From: Bradyrhizobium genosp. L
GTDB lineage: Bacteria; Pseudomonadota; Alphaproteobacteria; Rhizobiales; Xanthobacteraceae
Direction: 5' to 3'
Assembly (NCBI RefSeq): GCF_015624485.1
Contig: NZ_CP061378.1
Span: forward strand, 1,798,001-1,862,000
DNA: 64,000 nt
The translations under genes and the position numbers were made by a program. A model generated the notes under the pieces. It was not told where the DNA came from, did no database searches, and saw only the letters and a program-made list of their open reading frames with translations. Positions 7,166 through 26,496 of this stretch are shown here, piece after piece. The first letter of the stretch is position 1. Each line of letters begins with the position of its first letter.

Positions 7166-8950
7166 ATGCGACACTTGAGAAAGACCAAGGATAGTCTTCT
7201 GACGATGACCAGCGCGCTCGCGCTCGTCGCGGCGTCGGTTGCTATCGCCGCGCCGGCGCGCGCGGACGAGGCCGCCGCCAAGAAGTGGATCGACGGCGGC
7301 GAATTCCAGCCGTCGACCCTCTCCAAGGACGACCAGATGAAGGAAATGGAGTGGTTTATCAAGGCCGCTGCACCCTTCAAGGGCATGGAGATCAACATCG
7401 TCTCCGAAACCCTGACGACGCATGAATATGAATCCCGCACGCTCGCCAAGGCGTTCGAGGAGATCACCGGCATCAAGGTGAAGCACGACGTCATCCAGGA
7501 AGGCGACGTCGTCGAGAAGATCCAGACCCAGATGCAGTCCGGCAAGAACGTCTATGACGGCTGGATCAACGACTCCGACTTCATCGGCACCCACTTCCGC
7601 TACGGCCAGGCGGTCGACCTGACGGAGTGGATGAAGGGCGAAGGCAAGGACGTCACCGACCCGATGCTCGACGTCGACGACTTCATCGGCAAGTCGTTCA
7701 CGACCGCGCCGAACGGCCACCTCTACCAGCTGCCCGACCAGCAGTTCGCCAACCTCTATTGGTTCCGCTACGACTGGTTCACCAACCCCGACTATAAGGC
7801 CAAGTTCAAGGCCAAGTACGGCTACGAGCTCGGCGTGCCCGTGAACTGGTCGGCCTATGAGGACATCGCTGATTTCTTCACCAACGACATCAAGGAAATC
7901 AACGGCGTCAAGGTCTACGGCCATATGGATTATGGCAAGAAGGATCCCTCGCTCGGCTGGCGTTTCACCGACGCCTGGCTGTCGATGGCCGGCAACGGCG
8001 ACAAGGGCATCCCGAACGGCCTGCCGGTCGACGAATGGGGCATCCGCATGGAAGGCTGCCGTCCGGTCGGCTCGTCGGTCGAGCGCGGCGGCGACGTCAA
8101 CGGCCCGGCGGCGGTCTACTCGATCGTCAAGTACCTCGACTGGATGAAGAAGTATGCTCCGCCGCAGGCGCAGGGCATGACCTTCTCCGAATCGGGCCCG
8201 GTGCCCTCGCAGGGCAACATCGCCCAGCAGATCTTCTGGTACACCGCCTTCACCGCCGACATGGTGAAGCCCGGCTTGCCGGTGATGAACGCGGACGGTA
8301 CGCCGAAGTGGCGTATGGCCCCGTCGCCGCACGGCTCGTACTGGAAGGACGGCATGAAACTCGGCTACCAGGATGTGGGCTCGCTCACGCTCCTGAAGTC
8401 GACCCCGGTCGACCGCCGCAAGGCGGCCTGGCTCTATCAGCAGTTCATCGTCTCCAAGACGGTCAGCTTGAAGAAGAGCCATGTCGGTCTCACCTTCATC
8501 CGTGAATCCGACATCTGGGACAAGTCGTTCACCGAGCGTGCGCCGAAGCTCGGCGGCCTGATCGAGTTCTACCGTTCGCCCGCGCGCGTGCAGTGGACCC
8601 CGACCGGCAACAACGTGCCCGACTATCCGAAGCTCGCGCAGCTCTGGTGGCAGAACATCGGCGACGCGTCGTCCGGTGCGAAGACGCCGCAGCAGGCGAT
8701 GGATGCGCTCGCAGCCGCGCAGGACTCGGTGATGGAGCGTCTCGAGAAGTCGGGCGTGCAGGGTGCCTGCGGTCCGAAGCTCAACCCGAAGAAGACCGCC
8801 GAGTACTGGTACGACAAGTCGGCGAAGGACGGCAACATCGCGCCGCAGCGCAAGCTCGCCAACGAGAAGCCGAAGGGCGAAACCATCGACTACGACACCC
8901 TGATCAAGTCGTGGCCGGCCTCGCCCCCGAAGCGCGCAGAGGCGAAGTAA
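7166..8950 (+). CDS. glpV: Glycerol ABC transporter substrate-binding protein GlpV
   Basis: A 594-residue periplasmic solute-binding protein. The signal peptide has a basic start (MRHLRKTKD), a hydrophobic core and a probable cleavage after APARA near residue 33. The mature part is unusually large for the extracellular-solute family 1 but normal for this glycerol-importer subtype. GGAGGAATCACC precedes the ATG. Codon use is strongly biased to C/G endings, suggesting high expression. A strong intrinsic terminator follows 33 bases downstream, so this is the last gene of the operon. Confidence 0.9.
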   Translation: MRHLRKTKDSLLTMTSALALVAASVAIAAPARADEAAAKKWIDGGEFQPSTLSKDDQMKEMEWFIKAAAPFKGMEINIVSETLTTHEYESRTLAKAFEEITGIKVKHDVIQEGDVVEKIQTQMQSGKNVYDGWINDSDFIGTHFRYGQAVDLTEWMKGEGKDVTDPMLDVDDFIGKSFTTAPNGHLYQLPDQQFANLYWFRYDWFTNPDYKAKFKAKYGYELGVPVNWSAYEDIADFFTNDIKEINGVKVYGHMDYGKKDPSLGWRFTDAWLSMAGNGDKGIPNGLPVDEWGIRMEGCRPVGSSVERGGDVNGPAAVYSIVKYLDWMKKYAPPQAQGMTFSESGPVPSQGNIAQQIFWYTAFTADMVKPGLPVMNADGTPKWRMAPSPHGSYWKDGMKLGYQDVGSLTLLKSTPVDRRKAAWLYQQFIVSKTVSLKKSHVGLTFIRESDIWDKSFTERAPKLGGLIEFYRSPARVQWTPTGNNVPDYPKLAQLWWQNIGDASSGAKTPQQAMDALAAAQDSVMERLEKSGVQGACGPKLNPKKTAEYWYDKSAKDGNIAPQRKLANEKPKGETIDYDTLIKSWPASPPKRAEAK

Positions 8951-8982
8951 GGCTCTGTTGCCTACGCCTTCCAAGAAGTGAG

Positions 8983-9010
8983 AAAGGCCGGGAGCAATCC
9001 CGGCCTTTTT
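8983..9010 (+). terminator. Intrinsic terminator of the glycerol operon
   Basis: AAAGGCCGGGA (8983-8993) pairs perfectly with TCCCGGCCTTT (8998-9008) around a GCAA tetraloop and runs into five T. This is a textbook rho-independent terminator. Confidence 0.92.
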
Positions 9011-9088
9011 CGTCATTGCGAGCGCAGCGAAGCAATCCAAATCTCCATTTGCGGCTTTGTGGATTGCTTCGCTCCGCTCGCAATGACG
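9011..9088. repeat. Long inverted repeat, CGTCATTGCGAGCG type
   Basis: CGTCATTGCGAGCGCAGCG.. is followed after about 20 bases by its near-perfect inverse ..CGCTCGCAATGACG. The stem is about 29 bases and lies just behind the glpV terminator. This is one of several dispersed palindrome families in the window. Confidence 0.85.
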
Positions 9089-9134
9089 GCTATCATCGAT
9101 GCAATGTCGGCCGTCTCCGGCCGGGGAGTTCGCC

Positions 9135-9845
9135 ATGCGCATGACGTTCCGTTGCGACCCAAAGCTTGCCGATCATCTGCTGCGGCCCACTCCGGCGCGC
9201 AGCGCGCTGCCCGACTGGTTGCGCGCGATGCCGGCAAAGGCGCATTCCGAGATCCACGGCCGCGACATCCGCACCGTCAAGCAATGCCCGCCCTTCGTCG
9301 ATGCGATGGCCCATGGCGTGATGATCCCGCTGCCCTGCGATATCAGGGTGGAGCGCGGCGCGTTCGCCTGGGACTGGGAGATTCCGGAACCTGCGACAGA
9401 GGGCCATCCGCGCGCGCCGCTCAGCTTCCACCCGGCGGCGCAATTCGAAGGCGCGCCGTTCGCCAACGGGCAGGCCGCGCTCAAGTTCAACAGTTTCTGG
9501 ACCATCGAGCTCGAGCCAGGCTGGTCGCTGTTTGCGACCCATCCGGTCAATCGCGACGATCTGCCGTTCCGGCTGATCTCGGGACTGGTCGATGCCGACC
9601 GGTTTCATGATGGCGGCATCAATTTCCCCGCGGTCTGGACCGAGCCGGAGTTTTCCGGCGTGCTGCCGAAGGGCACGCCGGTCGCGCAATGCTTTGCGGT
9701 GCCGCGCGAGGCCCCCGAATTGGTGTTCGAGGCCTTCGACGCCGCGCACCAGCAATCCTATGCGAAGGTCGTCGGCGAGGTGCTCGCCGCGCCGAACGTC
9801 TACCGCAAGCACTTTCGCGCCAGGCGCGGCCGGCTAACCAGCTAG
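9135..9845 (+). CDS. Conserved hypothetical protein, 236 residues
   Basis: I do not recognise a characterised family. The protein begins MRMTFRCDPKLADHLL and has no signal peptide or membrane segment. It is rich in Pro and aromatic residues (FAWDWEIPEP, FNSFWTIELEPGWSLFATHPVN). The latter stretch resembles uncharacterised proteins with a cupin-like or small-molecule-binding look, but no catalytic motif is evident. ATG 9135 was chosen because GGGGAG lies upstream and similarity to coding composition starts there. Its 3' end overlaps the convergent TPR gene by 12 bases. Confidence 0.75.
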   Translation: MRMTFRCDPKLADHLLRPTPARSALPDWLRAMPAKAHSEIHGRDIRTVKQCPPFVDAMAHGVMIPLPCDIRVERGAFAWDWEIPEPATEGHPRAPLSFHPAAQFEGAPFANGQAALKFNSFWTIELEPGWSLFATHPVNRDDLPFRLISGLVDADRFHDGGINFPAVWTEPEFSGVLPKGTPVAQCFAVPREAPELVFEAFDAAHQQSYAKVVGEVLAAPNVYRKHFRARRGRLTS

Positions 9846-22666: not shown

Positions 22667-22840
22667 CGATGTCACCGGCGTTGCTGGGGCGGAAAAGCGC
22701 AGCTTTGCATACACCAGGGCGGCCCCGGGCAACAACGGGGTGGACCATTTGAGCGTCGGCGGGGAAAGTGCCGGCCGTTATGATCGGCGGATGATTCGCG
22801 GGCAGGGGTGTCCGCGGATCGGCCACGCCCGGAGGGACCC

Positions 22841-24490
22841 ATGTGGAGTTTTCTCGAGCGTCTCCTTGATTATTCGACGCTCTCGCCGCACGGCATTTGT
22901 TTGTTATGGGAGCCGGAGCTGATCTGGCTCCACGTCATTTCCGACGCCATCATTGCCGTTTCCTATTTCTCGATTCCGTTCGCGCTCGCCATCCTGGTGT
23001 CGAAGCGGCGCGATTTCCAGTTCGGATGGATGGCCTGGCCGTTCGCCACCTTCATCCTGGCCTGCGGGCTCACCCATGTGTTCTCGATCTACACGCTGTG
23101 GGTACCGATCTACGGCATCGAAGGCCTGCTCAAGGCGCTGACCGCGATCGCCTCGATCTTCACCGCGGTGCTGCTGTGGCCGCTGATCCCGCGAATCCTG
23201 GCGATCCCGACCGAGCAGCAGCTGCGCGAGGCGCATGTCGCGCTGGCCGAGGAGGGCCGGCAGCGCCAGCGCTCGGAATTCCTGCTGCAGCGCTTTCGCG
23301 AGGCCGAGGCCTATGAGAGCAAGATCCGCCAAGCGCAGAAGATGGAGGCGGTCGGCCAGCTCACCGGCGGCATCGCGCACGACTTCAACAACATCCTCAC
23401 CGTGATCACCGGCACCATCGACATCCTCGCCGATGCGGTCACCCACAACCGGCAGCTCACCGAGATCACCGGCCTGATCCGCGACGCCGCCGACCGCGGC
23501 GCCTCGCTGACCCGGCATTTGCTCGCCTTCGCGCGCAAGCAGCCGCTGCAGCCGACCGATGTCGACGTCAACGCGCTGATGGTCGACACCATCGAACTGT
23601 TGCAGCCGACCATCGGCGACCATGTCGACATCGAGTTTCATCCCGCGCTGACTTTGCCGCGTGCGCTGGTCGATTCCAACCAGCTCGCCACCGCGGTGAT
23701 CAATCTGGCGCTGAACGCGCGCGACGCGATGCCGAAGGGCGGCCGGCTCAGGATCGAGACCCGCATCGCCGAGCTGAAGCCCGCCGATGTGCAGGGCCAT
23801 GACGGCCTCGTCGCCGGCGACTATGTGGCGATCGCGCTGATCGACAACGGCCAGGGCATCGCGGAGGCGGACCTGACGAAGGTATTCGAGCCGTTCTTCA
23901 CCACCAAGGAGGTCGGCAAGGGTACCGGGCTCGGCCTGAGCATGGTCTATGGCTTCGTCAAGCAATCCAACGGTCATATCACGCTCGACAGCGAGATCGA
24001 CCGCGGCACCCGCGTCACGCTGTATTTGCCGCGCGGCGCGGTCAACGCGCAGCCGGTGGTGCTGCCTCGGCGGCAACCGGAACTGCGCGGCGCGAGGGAG
24101 ATCGTGCTGATCGTCGAGGACGACAGGCTGGTGCGCGCCTATGTGCTGACCCAGATCGAAAGCCTGGGCTACACCACGCTGTCGGCAAGCAACGGGCCGG
24201 AGGCGCTGGCGCTGCTCGACAGCGGCGTGCCGGTCGATCTCCTGTTCACCGACGTCATCATGCCGGGCGCGATGAACGGCCGCGAGCTCGCCACCGAAGC
24301 GCGCAGGCGGCGGCCGGCCTTACGCGTGCTGTTCACCTCGGGTTACACCGAGAACGCGATCGACCATGACGGCCGGCTCGACGAGGGCGTCCTGTTCCTG
24401 GCCAAGCCCTACAGCCGCGCCGATCTCGCCAGCATGCTGCGCGTCGCCTTGCGCGAGGACGAAGCGGCCGCGCGCGAGCCGGCGGCGTAG
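22841..24490 (+). CDS. Hybrid histidine kinase with ethylene-receptor-like membrane domain
   Basis: A 549-residue membrane sensor kinase. Residues about 26-122 form three membrane helices that match the ethylene-binding domain of plant ETR1. [14 protein letters not shown] (33-46) and FILACGLTH (71-79) place Asp35, Tyr42, Ile72, Cys75 and His79 exactly ten residues after ETR1 Asp25, Tyr32, Ile62, Cys65 and His69; Cys and His are the copper ligands there. A coiled linker (about 125-165) leads to a HisKA box ([13 protein letters not shown], phospho-His180), an ATPase domain ([23 protein letters not shown]) and a C-terminal receiver (VEDD, phospho-Asp in [10 protein letters not shown]). There is no GAF domain. 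GGAGGGA precedes ATG 22841, chosen over GTG 22808. The partner regulator is not adjacent. Confidence 0.9.
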
Positions 24491-24617: not shown

Positions 24618-26291
24618 TCATGAAGCCGTCAGCACCACGTCGTCCATCACCAGCGCGTCGATGCCGGACTTGCGGAACGTGACGATGGCATCGTTCGGCG
24701 TGCAGACGATCGGCTCGCTGTCGTTGAAGGAGGTGTTGACGACGATGGGCACGCCGGTCTTGGCATGGAACGCGGAGATCAGCGCGTGAAAGCGCGGATT
24801 TGACTTGCGGCTCACGATCTGGACCCGGGCGCTGCCGTCCTTGTGCAGCACGGCGGGAATCAGGTCGCGCTTGTCGGGCTTCACGGGACAGGCAAACAGC
24901 ATGAACTCATGGCTCGCCGACCGTGCGCCGATCTCGAACCATTCATCGGCGTGCTCGGCCAGCACGCTCGGCGCGAAGGGACGGAAATCCTCGCGGTGCT
25001 TGACCTTCTGGTTGAGGATGTCGCGCATGTCGGGCCGCCTGGGGTCGGCGAGCAGCGAGCGGTTGCCGAGCGCGCGCGGCCCGAACTCCATGCGGCCCTG
25101 AAACCAGGCCACGATCTTGCCGTCGGCGATCATCCTGGCGGCATCGCGCGCCGGCTGCTTGCTTTGCCGCGACTTCAGGCCGGCCGCTTTCACCGCCGCC
25201 AGGATATCGCGTCGCTTGAACGCAGGCCCGAGATACGGCGTGGAAGTGCCGCGCTCGGGTGGACGCTTAGCCTTGGCGCAATGCACCGCCAGCGCCGCGC
25301 CGATCGCGGTGCCCGCGTCATGCGGCGCGGACGGAATGAAGAGGTTGGCGAACTCGTTTGAACGCTTGACCACGTCGTTGGTCACGCAGTTGAGCGCGAC
25401 GCCGCCGGCCAGGCACAGATTGTCCGACGGCACCCGGCGCTTGACGCGGCGCACCGCAGCGGTGACCGCGGCGTCGGTCGCCGCCTGCAGTGCTGCCGCC
25501 ATATCGGCATGCCGCGGCAGGATCTCGCCATCCTCAAAGCGCCCCTCGCCGAAGATCGCTTCCATCCTGGCATAGCGCTCCGGGCTGTTGCCGAGAAATT
25601 CGCGCGCCACGCCGTAGTTCACCTCATCGGCGCGCATGATCGAGAGAAACTGCTCGCGGTAAACCTCGGGATCGCCGTAGGCGGCGAGTCCCATCACCTT
25701 CGAGGCGTCGTAGTGCGAGAAGCCGAGATAGCCGCTGAACACCTCCCACAGGAAGCCGATCGAGTGCGGATACTCGAACACCTCGACGGTCTGGATCTTC
25801 GTGCCGGCAGCCTTCGCGATCGAGGAGGCCGCGGTCTCGCCGATGCCGTCGATGGTGAGGATCGCCGCCTGATCGAAGCCCGACGGGAAATAGGCGGACG
25901 CGGCGTGCGCTATGTGATGCGGCACGAAATGCAGCCGCTGTCCGAGCGCGCGTCCGAGCAACTCGTCGATCGCGCCGGGCACTTGTCCCAGCCGCAGCCG
26001 AAAGGTTTCTTCCGATCGCGGATCCCACCACTCGGCGCGATAGCGCTTCCGGCGCAGCTTGGGATCGAACGAGTAGGCGACGTGATCGATATCCTTAGCG
26101 GTGAGCCCGGCGTGGTTCAGGCAATAGCGGATCGCGCGTTCGGGGAGCTGATGCGGATTGTCGAATTCGGCGGGCTTGCCGTGCTTGATGCGGTTGAACC
26201 GCTCCTCTTCCACGGCCGCGACGAGCTTGCCGTCGACCAGGAGCGCCGCGGCGGACTCGTGATACACTGAATTGATTCCAAGGATGTTCAC
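24618..26291 (-). CDS. Carbamoyltransferase, NodU/CmcH family
   Basis: A 557-residue enzyme predicted to transfer carbamoyl from carbamoyl phosphate to a hydroxyl of a small molecule or sugar. The N-terminal Kae1/ASKHA-like part has the metal-binding motif VPHHIAHAASAYFPSG and DGIGETA. The C-terminal YrdC-like part contains FQGRMEFGPRALGNRSLLADPR, diagnostic of the family. The start is GTG 26291 (VNILGINSVYHESAAALL); the upstream frame runs into a repeat. No antibiotic or nod cluster surrounds it, so the acceptor is unknown. Confidence 0.9.
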   Translation of the reverse strand: MNILGINSVYHESAAALLVDGKLVAAVEEERFNRIKHGKPAEFDNPHQLPERAIRYCLNHAGLTAKDIDHVAYSFDPKLRRKRYRAEWWDPRSEETFRLRLGQVPGAIDELLGRALGQRLHFVPHHIAHAASAYFPSGFDQAAILTIDGIGETAASSIAKAAGTKIQTVEVFEYPHSIGFLWEVFSGYLGFSHYDASKVMGLAAYGDPEVYREQFLSIMRADEVNYGVAREFLGNSPERYARMEAIFGEGRFEDGEILPRHADMAAALQAATDAAVTAAVRRVKRRVPSDNLCLAGGVALNCVTNDVVKRSNEFANLFIPSAPHDAGTAIGAALAVHCAKAKRPPERGTSTPYLGPAFKRRDILAAVKAAGLKSRQSKQPARDAARMIADGKIVAWFQGRMEFGPRALGNRSLLADPRRPDMRDILNQKVKHREDFRPFAPSVLAEHADEWFEIGARSASHEFMLFACPVKPDKRDLIPAVLHKDGSARVQIVSRKSNPRFHALISAFHAKTGVPIVVNTSFNDSEPIVCTPNDAIVTFRKSGIDALVMDDVVLTAS

Positions 26292-26370
26292 CTGCCGCTC
26301 CAGTACACTTGGCTGTCGCGGAATATTATCCAATGTGTCCGGACGTGTCAGGTGCCATCGCGGTCGCATA

Positions 26371-26496
26371 GTGTCGTCCCGGCGAAGGCCGGGACCCATA
26401 ACCACAGGGTTGTGTTGTTGAAGCGCGCTGTGGCCCCAGCGTCGCGCAACAATGACTTTCGGTGGTTATGGGTCCCGGCCTTCGCCGGGACGACAC
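26371..26496. repeat. Long inverted repeat, GTCGTCCCGGC type (copy 1)
   Basis: GTGTCGTCCCGGCGAAGGCC.. and ..GGCCTTCGCCGGGACGACAC are perfectly complementary over more than 30 bases including ACCCATAACCAC / GTGGTTATGGGT, with a loop of about 55 bases. A related element lies at 60427-60545. It separates the carbamoyltransferase and aldo/keto reductase genes. Confidence 0.88.

Follow-up and report, generated by a model that had tools for sequence, protein, structure and literature searches.

The gene at 22841..24490 (+ strand) of the 64,000-nucleotide stretch of Bradyrhizobium genosp. L DNA analyzed here, which we call the window, probably encodes a bacterial ethylene receptor of the ETR1, SynEtr1 and AzoEtr1 kind, wired as a hybrid kinase. 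We give this reading of the sequence a probability of about 0.8. An initial annotation of this DNA had already placed the protein among the hybrid kinases with an ethylene-binding domain (EBD), and this family assignment is supported and borne out by a profile match, the ligand residues, the predicted membrane helices and the pattern of selection. Ethylene as the natural ligand is assumed from homology.

Architecture and ligand residues

The open reading frame is a genuine gene for a hybrid sensor histidine kinase of 549 aa, with the order EBD, helix, HisKA, HATPase_c and receiver according to the ORF list and Pfam. A Shine-Dalgarno-like GGAGG was read in the sequence (22831..22835, +), 5 nt before the ATG at 22841, and 106 of the best 120 of 1357 homologs are 549-555 aa long. 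Hence, an in-frame GTG at 22808, 11 codons upstream of this ATG, is unnecessary as a start. The profile search proposed in the initial annotation gave a full-length Pfam match of ETR1_N (PF25487, profile 1-97 of 97) to residues 26-122 (22916..23206, +), with E=5.7e-37 and a score of 126 bits (cut-off 27). This value rules out chance, which had been judged hard to invoke, as the source of the resemblance to ETR1. Membership of another 3-TM sensor family, the competing fit named at that stage, was rejected as none matched in Pfam, and no rival Pfam family appeared over the EBD region at E<=1.

Behind the EBD, all on the + strand, a linker with no Pfam match (residues 125-168, 23213..23344) leads from the membrane domain to HisKA, and in an AlphaFold2 model it lies inside a single helix (residues 125-199) that runs from the membrane domain through the start of HisKA. 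The HisKA dimerization/phospho-acceptor domain (PF00512, E=4.2e-8; residues 172-234, 23354..23542) contains the phospho-acceptor His180 (23378-23380) in the motif AHDFNN, and is followed by the HATPase_c catalytic domain (PF02518, E=7.1e-21; residues 278-398, 23672..24034) and by a C-terminal receiver (Response_reg, PF00072, E=1.7e-16; residues 422-533, 24104..24439) with the phospho-acceptor Asp471 (24251-24253). These three Pfam domains, together with intact kinase boxes (H180, N288, D335 and G359-366) and receiver Asp471, agree with the active-looking HisKA/ATPase/receiver described initially; H180 is kept in 119 and D471 in 117 of the best 120 of 1357 homologs. Pfam gave no GAF or PAS at E<=1 and no second sensor domain besides the EBD, so that the direct joining of EBD and kinase without GAF, also claimed at first, holds, with a single modelled helix at this place. 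The plant ETR1 architecture (EBD-GAF-HK-receiver) was rejected on the same Pfam result. Beyond the four assigned domains, the lone Pfam match at E<=1 was a sub-threshold HPTransfase.

In the AlphaFold2 model, the N-terminus forms helix 1 (residues 25-55, 22913..23005, +) with D35, Y42, I45 and P46, helix 2 (residues 62-87, 23024..23101, +) with I72, C75 and H79, and helix 3 (residues 91-112, 23111..23176, +) with K98, the counterpart of ETR1 K91. Three hydrophobic regions coincide with these helices in a Kyte-Doolittle analysis (residues 27 to 55, about 68-90 and about 93-124), and the three N-terminal membrane helices of an ethylene receptor are thus predicted here. The mean pLDDT was 75, with 70-91 by block in the three EBD helices, and the pTM was 0.42, so that the model does not predict the relative arrangement of the domains. 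No PDB chain matched the membrane domain by sequence at E<=1.

For the ligand site, we aligned the protein to ETR1 and used the list of seven ethylene-binding residues of that receptor. On this alignment, D35, Y42, I45, P46, I72, C75 and H79 pair with ETR1 D25, Y32, I35, P36, I62, C65 and H69, which confirms the positions of the five residues named in the initial annotation (D35, Y42, I72, C75 and H79). The constant offset of ten reported there holds through helix 2 and fails beyond it: ETR1 is three residues longer before helix 3, so that its K91 pairs with K98 past a three-residue gap. The two EBDs are identical at 36 of 107 aligned positions. C75 and H79 delimit the motif CGLTH (23063..23077, +) and are the putative Cu(I)-binding Cys and His, a role that is established for this pair in ETR1. 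Among the best 120 of 1357 homologs, C75 is kept in 120, H79 in 119, and all eight residues (the seven ligand residues plus the Lys) in 118, the two exceptions being one D35N and one H79Q. All eight were also kept in 62 of the 78 distinct EBDs from the fetched loci, ETR1 left out. In PMC11819568, ethylene binding is said to need seven residues; D25, C65 and K91 are named there.

Relatives and selection on the sensor domain

The 7.40-Mb genome has one EBD match. Across the genus, an EBD was present in 101 of 146 Bradyrhizobium genomes: 82 had a match of at least 120 bits (called canonical-scoring in the genus-wide counts, a label that refers to the score and not to inspected residues), 30 had one of 40-95 bits, and 11 had both. 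With these genomes and AzoEtr1, the family is already known in bacteria and the window protein is not new in kind. In wider samples, EBD matches were found in 64 of 397 genomes of the order (55 above cut-off) and in 29 of 398 of the phylum (28 above cut-off). The named relatives point to Bradyrhizobium as the genus, and the best named full-length match came from Bradyrhizobium sp. LTSP885, with 87%. The sources label the homologs in general terms (‘ATP-binding protein’ or ‘response regulator’, for example). In the open-licence literature, we found no report on this protein, as the initial annotation had supposed of functional work, or on an EBD in Bradyrhizobium. Regarding 20 loci with low ETR1_N scores from other genomes of the order Hyphomicrobiales (L169-L188), 19 could be aligned, the weakest with an unsure alignment, and none of the 19 keeps all eight residues; L185 deviates solely in its copper Cys, which is replaced by Ser. 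To call a protein an ethylene receptor, a weak ETR1_N match by itself is not enough.

The EBD proteins were sorted into five classes from representatives. Class A is the window type, with 11 loci, and class A2 comprises the other EBD-HK-receiver hybrids, 48-51% identical. Class B is EBD-PAS-HK-receiver (two scanned), class D is EBD-PAS-HK with no receiver match (two scanned), and class E has the architecture of class A (three scanned), with 50-57% identity. At ETR1 positions 25, 32, 35, 36, 62, 65, 69 and 91, the 11 distinct sequences of class E read D-F-[TI]-A-[AV]-C-R-K, and L160-L162 are more eroded members of it. This Arg group of Bradyrhizobium EBD hybrids next to the window type (L149-L150, L152-L158, L163 and L051) has Arg for the copper His, Phe for Tyr and Ala for Pro, and keeps Asp, Cys and Lys; it is possibly a repurposed, copper-free sensor.

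In trees built on the part of the protein after the EBD, the 12 class A rows cluster in a single clade (SH-aLRT 99 in one tree; bootstrap 81 and SH-aLRT 99 in the other), which sits inside an A+E group (support 99 and 98/97, respectively). The canonical A2 and B fall outside this group, and for A2 and B together both runs warned of long branches. The best trees place two E rows outside a group of A and the remaining E, which implies for the His either two separate losses or one loss with a later regain in A; a single clade for class E was neither demonstrated nor rejected (p-AU 0.46). As the window's clade lies among Arg proteins in the best trees, a loss of the site followed by its regain in this clade is possible.

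Two further forms were observed. Four Bradyrhizobium genomes have a conserved EBD-HisKA-receiver protein of 358-382 aa (L189:5428-6504, L190:5217-6365, L191:4802-5929 and L192:5361-6509) that lacks the ATPase domain, with nothing that aligns to residues about 246-427 of the window protein; HATPase gave no match in the one ATPase-less form scanned (L019), and full-length nodA was present in the four genomes of L189-L192 (4/4). This form recalls the kinase-defective plant receptors. At L160, a 754-aa ORF (7549-9813) starts a few bases after the eroded EBD kinase on the same strand, which suggests an operon. We tentatively consider, at somewhat less than even odds, that the Bradyrhizobium ethylene receptor radiated into canonical hybrids, an Arg/Phe/Ala group that perhaps senses otherwise without copper, and an ATPase-less form that is perhaps an ethylene-controlled phosphatase or a relay partner.

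Pairwise dN/dS was calculated by the Nei-Gojobori method for the EBD and the kinase, on pairs that share ancestry and hence are not independent. Between the window protein and its nine orthologs, the EBD gave the lower value in 9 of 9. The same was seen in 46 of the 49 usable pairs of class A (medians of 0.14 for the EBD and 0.189 for the kinase) and in 127 of 164 pairs of class B (0.0975 and 0.1405). In the canonical class A2, excess EBD constraint was absent (26 of 55; 0.145 and 0.129), and the EBD was never the lower one in class E, the Arg proteins (0 of 52 usable; 0.2375 and 0.0965), or in the eroded E (0 of 3; 0.617 and 0.199). Pairs with dS outside 0.05-1.2 or not computable were dropped (6/55 in A, 7/171 in B, 3/55 in E and 0/55 in A2), and L141 and L030 were left out of the class-wise values. 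At the level of sequence, the ordering of the classes by EBD constraint follows the ligand residues, and the comparison with relatives devoid of the copper His is the strongest indication, short of experiment, that the window's clade still uses its ligand site. That a canonical clade, A2, lacks excess EBD constraint (26/55) is a point against.

Genomic setting, nodulation and other readings

The kinase gene stands by itself between a divergently oriented lytic transglycosylase gene and, just downstream, a convergent carbamoyltransferase gene (Carbam_trans_N/C in Pfam; 24618-26405, - strand). The neighbors common to the window and the nine close window-type loci are the lytic transglycosylase (9/9), DUF1993 (9), OYE (9), SDR (8) and aldo-keto reductase (8); the first three being shared by the nine close loci, the position looks vertically inherited. 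The more distant class A loci L050 and L141 have none of these neighbors. On the downstream side, six of the nine close loci have a gene that proved to encode an M48 peptidase in the one representative scanned, and the carbamoyltransferase gene is found in 3/9 (window, L049 and L134). We recognized no partner response-regulator gene adjoining the kinase. ACC deaminase is encoded in this genome (584 bits) and is above cut-off in 127 of the 146 Bradyrhizobium genomes, so that its presence here is uninformative.

The initial annotation saw the relevance of the protein in the inhibition of nodulation by ethylene, which the genomes do not bear out. In this genome, nifH gave no match above cut-off (best E 6.1e-5) and there is no full-length NodA, the one NodA-like match scoring 27.6 bits versus 303-340 in the genomes with a full-length protein. 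Over the 146 genomes, with ancestry uncorrected, nodA was present in 46 of 82 with a canonical-scoring EBD versus 38 of 64 without (p=0.74), and nifH in 49 of 82 versus 43 of 64 (p=0.39); genomes with a weak NodA match only (10 of 94, this genome included) were counted as lacking nodA. Low-scoring EBDs gave no significant tie to nodA either (p=0.84), nor did EBD frames of 300-400 aa (nodA in 5/5, p=0.07), 530-600 aa (12/28, p=0.09) or more than 600 aa (30/51, p=0.86). A nodulation link of the canonical EBD is not supported by these counts. A symbiotic role, in which the window-type receptor senses host ethylene to time nodulation, could appeal to the canonical-scoring EBD in 46 of the 84 nodA-bearing genomes and to the close window-type copies of G004, G077, G108, G119 and G139, which come from nodA-bearing genomes. 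Given the lack of full-length NodA and of nifH above cut-off here, the independence of EBD and nodA across the genus, and the close copies of G003, devoid of nodA, and of G109, with a weak nodA match at most, we hold it to be the least credible of the readings.

The domain could also bind Cu(I) at the same site and answer to a different physiological signal, such as the copper level, CO, another olefin or the redox state. The same residues would serve for such a signal, no ethylene-metabolism gene was recognized beside the kinase among the eight window proteins scanned, and the genus-wide distribution of the EBD has no tie to nodA. This reading is nonetheless unlikely, as 118 of the best 120 of 1357 homologs retain the residues for ethylene beyond Cys and His, and two bacterial receptors with an EBD are reported to serve ethylene (PMC11819568). 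We consider it very improbable that the membrane domain is only an anchor or dimerization device whose ligand sensing has been lost. The histidine has disappeared from neighboring proteins that share the architecture, and each of the 19 alignable low-scoring EBDs of the order lacks one or more of the eight residues, so that the fold can persist without the ligand site; against such a loss here, 46 of 49 usable pairs in the window's clade show stronger constraint on the EBD than on the kinase, and the constraint is reversed where the histidine is gone (EBD lower in 0/52 and 0/3 pairs).

Proposed mechanism and comparison with known systems

As an ethylene receptor, the window protein would hold Cu(I) in its dimer at Cys75 and His79, and ethylene would bind to this copper. 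The ethylene-induced change would travel down the helices and the linker and affect autophosphorylation at His180, with a decrease as the probable effect, in line with the view of ETR1. From His180, the phosphate would pass to Asp471 and, since no response-regulator gene was found beside the kinase, probably on to regulators elsewhere by way of a distant Hpt protein. As output, a shift in life style (attachment, metabolism) would be likely, close to roots or in soil that contains ethylene; in this strain it would not be nodulation.

The genus Bradyrhizobium is common in soil, and soybean symbionts belong to it. If the window protein binds ethylene, sensing of a gas-phase hormone would be common in it (82 of 146 genomes with at least 120 bits), and AzoEtr1-type sensing would extend beyond Azospirillum, uncoupled from nodulation. 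The loss of the copper His beside intact copies offers a natural test of the ethylene-sensor residues and of the role of the fold without them.

The best solved match to the kinase core was 5idj_A, named ‘Histidine kinase’ (E=1.3e-44), and the third was 5idm_A, named CckA. CckA and other AHDFNN hybrid kinases match from about residues 126-154 on, leaving the EBD uncovered, and an identity as CckA was rejected, the NCBIfam CckA models giving 345 and 279 bits versus curated cut-offs of 1000. The class B proteins of Bradyrhizobium (L164 and L165 scanned) share the canonical EBD and the kinase type with the window protein, but carry a PAS between EBD and HisKA, absent from the window type, and form a separate clade. 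Plant ETR1 has the same three-helix EBD, identical ligand residues and the same order of kinase and receiver, whereas its GAF and its three additional residues before helix 3 are missing here. The output of plant receptors is mainly independent of the histidine kinase, according to PMC11819568. The initial view that EBDs are known from cyanobacteria and predicted in other organisms no longer holds, since in Azospirillum brasilense the proteobacterial AzoEtr1 has been shown to bind ethylene and influences the colonization of roots; its responses are reported down to 1 ppb, and its disruption leads to constitutive responses (PMC11819568). Like AzoEtr1, the window protein couples a proteobacterial EBD that has the seven residues to a histidine kinase, but AzoEtr1 has a PAS between EBD and kinase, which the window protein lacks, and a response-regulator gene overlaps its end, whereas the window kinase has its own receiver and no adjacent regulator (PMC11819568). 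SynEtr1 (slr1212) of Synechocystis is, according to the same paper, likewise a bacterial EBD kinase and is said to signal by phosphorelay; it also senses light and signals to Slr1213 (PMC11819568), while the window protein has the EBD as its one sensor domain in Pfam.
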